Assembly (NCBI GenBank): GCA_019359505.1
Contig: JAHHHD010000002.1
Coordinates: 124,001-188,000 of the forward strand
Length of the DNA stretch: 64,000 nucleotides
Source of the DNA: Drouetiella hepatica Uher 2000/2452
GTDB lineage: Bacteria; Cyanobacteriota; Cyanobacteriia; Elainellales; Elainellaceae
Reading direction: 5' to 3'
Shown here in pieces: positions 51,727-53,100 of this stretch (positions are counted from its first letter, which is position 1; each line of letters opens with the position of its first letter). The notes below the pieces were generated by a model. The model saw nothing but the letters and a program-made list of their open reading frames with translations. It did no database searches and had not been told where the DNA came from. The position numbers were made by a program, and so were the translations under genes.

Positions 51727-51847
51727 AAAGTGCCCTGAGAAGAAGGTGCCCTGAGAGAAGGTGCTTTCCCCTAGAAGGTACTTGACCGAACTGCAAAGCA
51801 TTTGTTAGTTTAAGCAGTAAGTAAAAGCAAAGCAAATTTTTAGAGTC

Positions 51848-51904
51848 ATGCGCCACGCAACTCCGTACTTTTATTTTTGGTTTAGCAAGGTTCACCTGAG
51901 GTGA
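51848..51904 (+). CDS. Aromatic leader peptide 1 (18 codons)
   Basis: ATG CGC CAC GCA ACT CCG is followed by TAC TTT TAT TTT TGG TTT, then AGC AAG GTT CAC CTG AGG TGA, encoding MRHATPYFYFWFSKVHLR. Six successive codons (51866-51883) specify Tyr, Phe or Trp. The last codons and stop lie inside the first stem of a hairpin that precedes an intrinsic terminator. This is the layout of an attenuation leader peptide sensing charged aromatic tRNAs. The ribosome binding site is weak. No protein function is expected. Confidence 0.72.
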   Translation: MRHATPYFYFWFSKVHLR

Positions 51905-51959
51905 GTCCAGCTTTGCATGGAACCTCAAGGTGAACCGCAGACTCAACTCTGCGGTTTTT
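51889..51959 (+). terminator. Attenuator 1: leader hairpin and terminator
   Basis: Stem 1 pairs 51889-51902 (GGTTCACCTGAGGT) with 51922-51936 (one bulge). The terminator pairs 51933-51941 (AACCGCAGA) with 51948-51956 (TCTGCGGTT) followed by a T-rich tail. An alternative 6-bp pairing TGAGTC (51902-51907) with GACTCA (51940-51945) would disrupt the terminator. It overlaps the stop codon of leader 1. Confidence 0.65.
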
Positions 51960-52025
51960 GTTTTATTTAGGCTCTTTTACTCAAATCTCACAGTCAAATC
52001 TCAGTACCGCAATCTTCTCAGCCGC

Positions 52026-52088
52026 ATGACTTACCTCTCCACCTGGTTTTTTGGATTTTACTTCTGGAGCTTTACAAGCTCTGGATGA
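52026..52088 (+). CDS. Aromatic leader peptide 2 (20 codons)
   Basis: The ORF encodes MTYLSTWFFGFYFWSFTSSG and a TGA stop. Nine of 20 residues are aromatic, with the Trp-Phe-Phe-Gly-Phe-Tyr-Phe-Trp run at 52044-52067. It begins about 60 nt after the U tract of attenuator 1. Its 3' part overlaps RNA segments 1 and 2 of attenuator 2, as in trp and phe leaders of enterobacteria. No strong Shine-Dalgarno is visible, which is common in cyanobacterial genes. Confidence 0.78.
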   Translation: MTYLSTWFFGFYFWSFTSSG

Positions 52089-52143
52089 GAGAGTCGTGCA
52101 AACGTTTCTTGAACCCGGAGCCAAGCGAGGCTTCGGGTTTTTT
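52067..52143 (+). terminator. Attenuator 2 of the DAHP synthase gene: four-segment structure
   Basis: Segment 1:2 is GAGCTT (52067-52072) with AAGCTC (52076-52081). Antiterminator 2:3 is GCTCTGG (52078-52084) with CCGGAGC (52115-52121), 7 bp including one U-G. Terminator 3:4 is AACCCGGAGCC (52112-52122) with GGCTTCGGGTT (52129-52139), 11 bp with one G-U, then six T at 52138-52143. A ribosome stalled in the aromatic run would cover segment 1 and favour antitermination; a ribosome at the stop codon would cover segment 2 and favour termination. Confidence 0.78.
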
Positions 52144-52236
52144 GTTGCTACAGCTAACCCCAGTATTTAACCCCCAGGTTCTCAACTCATTTCACTATCT
52201 CAACTCATCTCACTACCTCAACTCAGGAGAATTCCA

Positions 52237-53100
52237 ATGCAGAAAGCTAAACTCGCGCTCAAAGCCAACGCTGACCACAAAACAATCGTCCAGCTCTCCA
52301 ATTCCGTTAGCGTCGGCGGACAGGATTTGCTGATTGTTGGCGGCCCCTGCACCGTAGAGAGCATGGCGCAGATGGAGGAAGTTGCCAGTCGGCTGGCGAT
52401 CGCCCCCGTTCAGGCGCTGCGCGGTGGTGTCTACAAGCCCCGCACCTCCCCTTACGACTTCCAGGGCTTAGGACTAGAAGGGCTAAAAATCTTGCAGAGC
52501 GTACGCGATCGCTCCGGATTGCCTGTCATTACCGAAGTGATGGCAATTTCCCAAATCGCTGATATCGCAGCCTACGCCGACGTACTGCAAGTAGGTAGCC
52601 GCAATATGCAAAACTTCGACCTGCTGAAAGCGCTAGGCGAAGCCAATAAGCCTGTACTGCTAAAGCGTGGACTTGCCGCAACGATCGAAGAATTCGTCAT
52701 GGCAGCCGAATATATCCTCAGCCACGGTAACCCCAACGTAATTATGTGCGAACGCGGCATCCGTAGCTTTGACTCCTACACCCGAAATGTCCTGGATTTG
52801 GGGGCAGTCGTTGCCCTGAAGCAAATCACCCATCTGCCCGTCATTGTTGACCCTAGCCATGCGGCAGGCAAACGGGAACTCGTTGCCGATTTGGCAAAAG
52901 CAGCGATCGCCTGTGGTGCTGATGGGGTGATCGTAGAATGCCATCCCGAACCCGAAAAGTCGGTGTCGGACGCTCGACAAGCCCTCTCGTTAGACGATAT
53001 GGTGACGCTGGCTCATAGCCTGGGCGCGATCGCCACAGCTGTAGGCAGGACGATTCCTCAGCCGCAAATAGAATGGGTTAGAGTGCCACAGGTTGCCTGA
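52237..53100 (+). CDS. 3-deoxy-7-phosphoheptulonate (DAHP) synthase, core type I-beta
   Basis: DAHP synthase condenses PEP and erythrose-4-phosphate, the first step to Phe, Tyr and Trp. The motifs GGPCTVES, KPRTSPYDFQGLGLEGL, CERGIRSFDSYTRNVLDLGA, VDPSHAAGKRELV and VECHPEPEKSVSDA mark the type I-beta KDO8P-like family. At 287 residues it is the bare catalytic barrel, without the N-terminal ACT-like or C-terminal chorismate-mutase allosteric domains. AGGAG (52225-52229) lies 7 nt before ATG 52237. The leader upstream contains two attenuator-like units. Both aroF and aroG are used as names for relatives, so no symbol is given. Confidence 0.94.
   Translation: MQKAKLALKANADHKTIVQLSNSVSVGGQDLLIVGGPCTVESMAQMEEVASRLAIAPVQALRGGVYKPRTSPYDFQGLGLEGLKILQSVRDRSGLPVITEVMAISQIADIAAYADVLQVGSRNMQNFDLLKALGEANKPVLLKRGLAATIEEFVMAAEYILSHGNPNVIMCERGIRSFDSYTRNVLDLGAVVALKQITHLPVIVDPSHAAGKRELVADLAKAAIACGADGVIVECHPEPEKSVSDARQALSLDDMVTLAHSLGAIATAVGRTIPQPQIEWVRVPQVA

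Follow-up and report, generated by a model that had tools for sequence, protein, structure and literature searches.

Two serial leader units of probable ribosome-dependent attenuator type upstream of a cyanobacterial DAHP synthase gene

The leaders of the trp, phe and his operons of enterobacteria represent ribosome-mediated transcription attenuation, a mechanism class that is old and well known. The leader analyzed here precedes a DAHP synthase gene within a 64,000-nucleotide stretch of the genome of Drouetiella hepatica Uher 2000/2452 (the window; all features described below are on the + strand). It resembles the enterobacterial leaders in that a short ORF contains codons for the products of the pathway and has its stop codon at segment 2, and in that a 2:3 antiterminator is opposed to a 3:4 terminator. 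It differs from them in several respects: (i) the gene is a cyanobacterial DAHP synthase gene, (ii) two complete units are placed in series, each reading Phe, Tyr and Trp, (iii) SD-like sequences are few, (iv) there is no match in Rfam, and (v) unit 2 has an additional helix between the start region and the post-stop region of its ORF. Moreover, unlike in the classical trp leaders, unit 1 favours the antiterminator when folded without a ribosome.

The nearest reported case is the uORFC-13-1 motif, described upstream of aroF in Acholeplasma and in environmental sequences (24 unique; PMC8632094). It likewise consists of a uORF with one or more Phe codons and a terminator behind it, ahead of a DAHP synthase gene. 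The comparison is one of descriptions: in the part of the paper dealing with this motif Phe is named as the sensed residue and a tandem arrangement is not mentioned. The Merino database contains predicted attenuators of aroA-I-beta/tyrA operons, and thus also places attenuators before operons of the aromatic pathway, including a Streptococcus pneumoniae operon that is said to show two attenuator units; its entries, however, are database predictions with the type of sensing unstated in the excerpted text, and there is no cyanobacterium among the table rows listed (PMC1173090). The hisS leaders of bacilli are another instance of leader-peptide attenuators outside Proteobacteria and Actinobacteria, but they concern histidine and Firmicutes, and cyanobacteria are not mentioned in the main text of that report (PMC2965389). 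In the excerpted text of a 2016 survey of leader genes it is stated that, for cyanobacteria, reliable data on attenuation were lacking (PMC4833913).

No earlier report of attenuation at a cyanobacterial aromatic gene was present among the matches listed for the open-licence literature (titles and the starts of abstracts), which agrees, within that partly seen literature, with the opinion expressed in an initial annotation of this region that no such attenuator had been described. As far as searched, four features are new: the occurrence in this phylum, the tandem arrangement, the fact that each of the two units reads three amino acids, and the additional helix.

Layout of the leader and conservation of its reading frames

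The product of the presumably regulated gene (52237-53100) is a Bacillus subtilis-type DAHP synthase, scoring 356.8 bits with TIGR01361 (cutoff 267.75). The elements in front of it are, in 5'-to-3' order, a promoter-like element, ORF1, terminator 1, ORF2 and terminator 2. The promoter-like element, TTGACC-N18-TAGTTT (51782-51811), was recognized by a pattern scan of relatives: 119 of 128 loci have TTGAC-N17..19-TANNNT no more than 120 nt 5' of ORF1, compared with a mean of 1.1 and a maximum of 2 in the shuffled control (20 rounds of approximate dinucleotide shuffles; in this control and in that for the ORFs, plain shuffling was used if no dinucleotide path was obtained in 20 tries). A scan of the 64-kb window with Rfam 15, whose families we take to include leaders, riboswitches and the T-box, revealed two tRNAs only, and no family reached the gathering score at the leader.

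ORF1 (51848-51904) encodes MRHATPYFYFWFSKVHLR and contains six consecutive aromatic codons (TAC TTT TAT TTT TGG TTT, 51866-51883, with TGG at 51878). ORF2 (52026-52088) encodes MTYLSTWFFGFYFWSFTSSG, in which nine of the 20 residues are aromatic; its aromatic core (TGG TTT TTT GGA TTT TAC TTC TGG) is located at 52044-52067. The composition originally ascribed to both ORFs was thus confirmed by direct reading. They are the sole ATG ORFs of 10-35 codons on either strand of the window with at least six aromatic codons per eight, and none appeared in ten approximately dinucleotide-preserving shuffles of the window. When the threshold was set at five or more per eight, three ORFs were found in the window versus seven in the ten shuffles combined.

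An SD-like sequence precedes ORF1 in 6 of 131 loci, ORF2 in 24 of 129 and the DAHP synthase gene in 59 of 67 (the last count comprises the order and genome-collection loci, duplicates included). The small number of SD-like sequences makes the translation of ORF1 and ORF2 less certain.

The relatives used for comparison were selected for resemblance of their DAHP synthase protein, irrespective of the leader. They comprised 30 loci from 36 searched genomes of the order (33 of which gave a match), 37 cyanobacterial loci among the 80 retained from a genome collection (the other 43 being non-cyanobacterial), and 77 upstream stretches from a search of the class. From these 144 loci we removed five (the duplicate records L031, L032, L033 and L054, and L044, with 102 nt of upstream sequence only) and six identical copies, which left 133. 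Aromatic content was the criterion for calling the ORFs, but in loci picked regardless of their leaders; 13 ORFs were assigned by hand from the peptide, and in six cases absence was decided by eye from the sequence. The ORF2 of L171 was wrongly chosen in the presence counts, the codon alignment, the spacing, the whole-leader folding, the folding under the earlier stall rule and the structure-free scan with its permutation test, and was corrected for the register-free count of helices and terminators.

ORF1 was identified in 131 and ORF2 in 129 of the 133 cyanobacterial loci (two and four absences, respectively). The median ORF1 has 18 codons, six of them aromatic, and the median ORF2 20 codons with eight aromatic; F, Y and W are all present in 129/131 and 124/129 cases. 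In codon alignments, four columns of the ORF1 core are 96-100% aromatic (131 rows) and seven columns of the ORF2 core 83-99% aromatic (123 rows). The aromatic class is kept in both ORFs through F/Y swaps and third-base changes, and one TGG of ORF1 is invariant (131/131). The N-terminal codons of both ORFs drift at all three positions, while the 3' ends (GGTTCACC in ORF1, CTCCGGG in ORF2) track base pairing instead. To judge from these alignments, the constraint on the cores acts on amino acid class and not on RNA. Loss of the aromatic codons in relatives had been named at the outset as grounds for abandoning the attenuator; across the 133 loci there was no general loss, and the runs are kept despite nucleotide change.

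Two loci of Calothrix (L037 and L040) have an ORF2 without a stop codon at the usual place, which would continue through the terminator. In both, a run of seven T residues is followed by an out-of-frame TAG just before segment 2, and the 2:3 pairing is intact by eye; frameshifting is one possible reading. These loci were left out of the unit-2 alignment and of the unit-2 structure counts, except for the register-free count of helices and terminators. In another locus, L133, ORF1 (MFTANSYFYFWYP) is five codons shorter at its end than in the relative L125, with the antiterminator pairing intact.

Alternative pairings in the two units

The intrinsic terminators indicated after both ORFs in the initial annotation were recovered by terminator scan, folding and covariation. 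Terminator 1 (51932-51959, including the T-run) has its stem at 51932-51957 (-14.9 kcal/mol, z -3.7), and terminator 2 (52111-52143, including the T-run) at 52111-52140 (-21.1 kcal/mol, z -5.2). A plain terminator scan of the window was no better than chance (three found versus 2.6 in shuffles). Among the relatives, a hairpin with a T-run follows all 131 copies of ORF1 and 127 of the 129 copies of ORF2; L009, which gave no terminator match, is absent from the unit-2 alignment.

The 1:2 and 2:3 stems of unit 2 were found as initially described, G-U pairs included, and the original coordinates hold to within a few bases. The 1:2 hairpin of this locus (52064-52084; 52064-52070 paired with 52078-52084) has a probability of 0.97 in ribosome-free RNA. 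The 7-bp antiterminator 2 pairs segment 2 (52078-52084), which lies inside ORF2 and ends one base short of the stop codon, with segment 3 (52115-52121), which lies within terminator 2. The antiterminator of unit 1, not drawn originally, was found here by folding and is strong (-28.1 kcal/mol, z -5.5). It consists of 51889-51897 paired with 51928-51936, extended by 51898-51902 paired with 51922-51926, and encloses a small hairpin (51906-51921). Its 5' arm (segment 2, 51889-51902) is placed inside ORF1 and reaches the first base of the stop codon, and its 3' arm (segment 3, 51922-51936) overlaps the 5' arm of terminator 1. In both units, a leader ORF with a run of end-product codons is followed by an intrinsic terminator located in front of the gene, and an antiterminator whose 5' arm is at the ORF end excludes that terminator.

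Covariation was observed in the stems of both units. The stems are kept in the relatives (133 loci), this having been the second point on which the proposal could have failed. In the unit-1 alignment (60 rows, 59 distinct), 93.0% of the antiterminator cells are paired, with 33 double-change cells versus 9.7 expected from shuffles (reached in 0/500); for terminator 1 the values are 98.1% and five double-change cells. In the unit-2 alignment (58 rows), antiterminator 2 has 86.3% of cells paired and 36 double-change cells versus 15.4 expected (0/500 shuffles), and terminator 2 has 91.7% and 16 versus 8.4 expected. Pairs with a change in both arms were at least as numerous in 53/500 shuffles for antiterminator 1, 2/500 for terminator 1, 73/500 for antiterminator 2 and 115/500 for terminator 2; further pair types in unit 2 were matched by 290/500 and 161/500.

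Since these pair-count measures are weak and the shuffle control leaves relatedness in place, a structure-free scan was performed on representatives less than 72% alike. In unit 1 (39 representatives, 303 window pairs, the 22 best pairs of each listing) the top pairs correspond to the antiterminator (z 9.0 and 8.8) and the terminator (7.0), and in unit 2 (64 representatives, 193 window pairs) to the terminator (9.0) and the antiterminator (8.3 and 7.3). When the register was left free, a 2:3 helix of at least 7 bp was found in 127/131 loci for unit 1 (67 distinct sequences) and 121/129 for unit 2 (75 distinct sequences), both counts being without a shuffle control. Individual loci illustrate how pairing is maintained: in L125 the pairing persists through a both-side change (GTTCGCCCGGA with TCCGGGCGAAC), as it does in L041 (TCAAGTTCCGGGT with GCCCGGAACTTGA), the terminator arms of L147 have changed in step (GGCTGCAG with CTGCAGCC), and in L060, L062 and L063 segment 2 is shifted to 20 nt before the ORF end with a 9-bp pairing kept.

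For unit 1 a further stem (columns 15-21 with 55-61) was considered and rejected as a part of the element, its probability exceeding 0.5 in 0/115 loci in each state. It has 81.5% of cells paired and 21 double-change cells, and its both-side-changed pairs were reached by 335/500 shuffles. This stem shares bases with the antiterminator, of which it may be an echo.

The structure-free scan also linked the start region of ORF2 with its stop/post-stop region (z 6.2, 4.7 and 4.4); a window farther upstream (S-22) gave z 4.1 as well, and the best start-region pair of unit 1 reached z 2.1. None of 5000 permutations was as high for this helix at 64, 37 or 17 representatives, a test in which relatedness was reduced, not removed, and the L171 representative carried the wrong ORF2; three control window pairs gave z -1.8 to 1.9. 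At this locus the start-codon region (52024-52032) pairs with the post-stop arm (52091-52099) with a probability of 0.93 in ribosome-free RNA.

Ribosome position and the proposed mechanism

It was claimed originally that a stalled ribosome would favour antitermination and a finishing one termination. We folded transcripts ending before segment 4, with ribosomes masking 26-27 bases. The unit-1 antiterminator had a probability above 0.5 in 105/115 loci with the ribosome stalled on the last Trp codon and in 0/115 with the ribosome at the stop codon (16/131 loci were not located by the pattern); for unit 2 the counts were 99/127 and 2/127. An earlier stall rule had given 88/126 and 2/126 for unit 2; in this window it took a Phe codon too near the stop, with a probability near 0, and was replaced by codon-by-codon folding. 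At this locus, antiterminator 1 then had a probability of 0.94 (TAC 51866), 0.83 (TGG 51878), 0.50 (TTT 51881) and 0 at the stop, and antiterminator 2 of 0.68 (TGG 52044), 0.36 (TTC 52062), 0.39-0.68 (TGG 52065), 0 on TTT 52071 and 0 at the stop. Antiterminator 2 thus reaches only 0.36-0.68 on the first three of these codons, where the start:post-stop helix competes with it; without the 5' part of ORF2 the value for TGG 52065 rose to 0.997.

In contrast, equilibrium folding of whole leaders under stall and stop masks did not separate the stalled and finished states. The terminator persists in most states (probability 0.87-1.00 at this locus); with stalled ribosomes it fell below 0.5 in 11/129 (unit 1) and 7/112 (unit 2) loci, and the stop value exceeded the stall value by more than 0.3 in 13/129 and 10/112. 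Opposite structures for stalled and finished ribosomes are thus supported in transcripts cut before segment 4 and not seen in whole leaders at equilibrium. As equilibrium keeps the terminator, the attenuation model needs co-transcriptional kinetics; timing also decides in the classical attenuation systems.

In 93/129 loci the last Trp codon begins 27 nt ahead of the ORF1 end. For ORF2 the distance, taken from the last aromatic codon with the final three residues ignored, is 24 nt in 90/112. A spacing of 24-27 nt is approximately that expected for the edge of a ribosome stalled there. Without a ribosome, unit 1 favours the antiterminator in 113/115 loci, and the unit-2 antiterminator has a probability of 0.001 at this locus and above 0.5 in 82/127 loci. 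In such folding the two units may respond differently to absent translation, at least in this genome.

The ORFs, the conservation of their codons, the mutually exclusive covarying stems, the promoter-like element, the spacing and the distribution are the observations on which our interpretation rests. They make it highly probable that two serial attenuators of the trp/phe type, ribosome-mediated and acting on transcription, precede the DAHP synthase gene, and that each of them reads codons for Phe, Tyr and Trp. That the leaders are translated, that ribosomes stall on them, that transcription ends there and that aminoacyl-tRNA levels govern the outcome are predictions of this scheme. The two units probably serve to signal, through stalled ribosomes, that Phe, Tyr or Trp is in short supply. 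One promoter would serve both units, with transcription starting approximately 30 nt before ORF1, as suggested by the position of the promoter-like element. The first part of each unit to be transcribed would be the leader ORF with its many Phe, Tyr and Trp codons. With any one of the charged tRNAs scarce, the leading ribosome would stall on those codons and leave segment 2, at the ORF end, free to pair with segment 3, so that the terminator would not form and transcription would read through. If all three were plentiful, the ribosome would reach the stop codon and cover segment 2, segments 3 and 4 would pair, and transcription would end. A full-length mRNA would require read-through at both unit 1 and unit 2.

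Other readings of the same features are far less probable. The invariant TGG of ORF1 (131/131), at a mostly fixed distance from the stop, would suit arrest peptides, whose nascent FYFW-type chain senses a free aromatic amino acid or a pathway intermediate in the tunnel and not uncharged tRNA; TnaC senses tryptophan in the ribosome tunnel. We consider this improbable, since F and Y replace each other freely, residues outside the run are not conserved in identity, the codons match all three products of the pathway, and a high product level should shut off, not raise, expression of the gene. Still more improbable is the view that the two ORFs encode functional micropeptides and that the terminators (after 131/131 ORF1 and 127/129 ORF2) end small transcripts of their own. 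The good conservation of the aromatic core of the peptides speaks for this view, but the N-terminal residues drift freely, the C-terminal ones obey nucleotide pairing (e.g. VH from GGTTCACC), the covarying alternative stems would have no purpose, and a genome with a broken DAHP synthase gene retains a damaged copy only (L194).

Structured, covarying RNA upstream of an amino acid gene might also point to an aptamer riboswitch or T-box control, the codon runs being incidental. The absence of any Rfam family at gathering score, the strong constraint at the codon level and the overlap of the stems with the ORF ends, as ribosome control requires, make this extremely improbable, to us the least likely of the three.

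Within the attenuation scheme, it is possible, though doubtful, that the two non-identical tri-amino-acid attenuators constitute a widespread cyanobacterial serial gate that controls entry into the aromatic pathway. In such a gate polymerase would pass an untranslated unit 1, while for unit 2, at least in this genome, termination would be the default, through the helix that ties its start codon to the region behind the stop. Default termination of unit 2 as a general rule is disfavoured by the ribosome-free antiterminator being favoured in 82/127 loci. Were this gate real, full expression would occur only when ribosomes load on ORF2 and stall on both leaders, the gate would sense translation initiation as well as the charging of aromatic tRNAs, and transcription and translation would be tightly coupled at this locus in cyanobacteria.

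Leader-peptide attenuation requires a ribosome close behind RNA polymerase. Since attenuation needs such coupling, and since some cyanobacterial mRNAs are noted, in the excerpted text of a review, to localise independently of translation (PMC7858274), coupling in this phylum should be directly testable at the present element. Its tandem build with three amino acids also raises the question of what is gained from a second serial unit. The leader may be of relevance to the engineering of aromatic products in cyanobacteria, as the gene of the first enzyme would bear two removable brakes.

Distribution and related elements

Of 291 genomes of the class, 106 (15 families) gave a match to the DAHP synthase gene at E <= 1e-110, and in every one of these we inspected the sequence in front of the gene. 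The two units occur together in 101; unit 1 is absent in G240, and unit 2 in G045, G078, G111 and G122 (all one family). Counted over this class sample, more than 100 comparable natural versions of the element are available.

Covariance models built from 60 (R1, unit 1) and 58 (R2, unit 2) loci detect the units in genomes outside their alignments. At E <= 1e-5 and under strict filters, R1 matches 108/291 and R2 100/291 genomes, with one match in each. Wherever an R1 match and the gene were both called, the R1 match shares contig and strand with the gene match and precedes it by 112-366 nt (103/103 genomes). All unit-1 model matches precede DAHP synthase, its fragments or a relic, the exception being a contig end (G153). 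In the other R1-positive genomes the gene is split at a contig end (G001, G012), present but above 1e-110 (G091) or broken (G143), G153 bringing these to five. Three genomes have the gene without an R1 match, two with a divergent unit 1 (G089, G177) and one without unit 1 (G240). R2 gave no match in 9/106, namely in the four genomes without unit 2 and in five (G182, G188, G200, G205, G229) in which ORF2 was seen directly.

In G143 (locus L194), unit 1 stands before a broken DAHP synthase gene, and both the terminator and the gene are damaged; judged by this damage, the locus is a relic losing gene and leader together. In a gene tree, L065, which has only unit 1, and L057, which has only unit 2, are placed near the cyanobacterial base, on long, poorly resolved branches. 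Unit 1 alone was seen in L065 and in L189-L193 (Pseudanabaenaceae, from L065).

Elsewhere in the D. hepatica genome R1 gave weak matches only, the best of which (E 0.059) corresponds to the opposite strand of terminator 1; weak full-length matches are located at C35:177840-177904 (E 0.095) and C57:79869-79938 (E 1.27). This genome encodes a second PF00793 protein, whose gene has no aromatic uORF in approximately 1.4 kb of upstream sequence; no type II DAHP synthase was found in the genome.

Among the 43 non-cyanobacterial loci, 24 have an aromatic uORF upstream of DAHP synthase, 23 of them with a terminator. In 18 loci of Acidobacteriota (L067, L069, L077, L079, L084-L086, L088, L090, L092, L094, L096, L101, L102, L105, L107, L108 and L110), a single aromatic uORF, often with RFW, is followed by a terminator, which is of the CCCACTC type in 16/18; this arrangement looks like a separate attenuator family. 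Four Photobacterium loci (L075, L078, L080 and L081) carry, approximately 400 nt upstream of the DAHP synthase match, a uORF with FFNNWWW, FFSWWW or LFSWWW, which is followed by a terminator.
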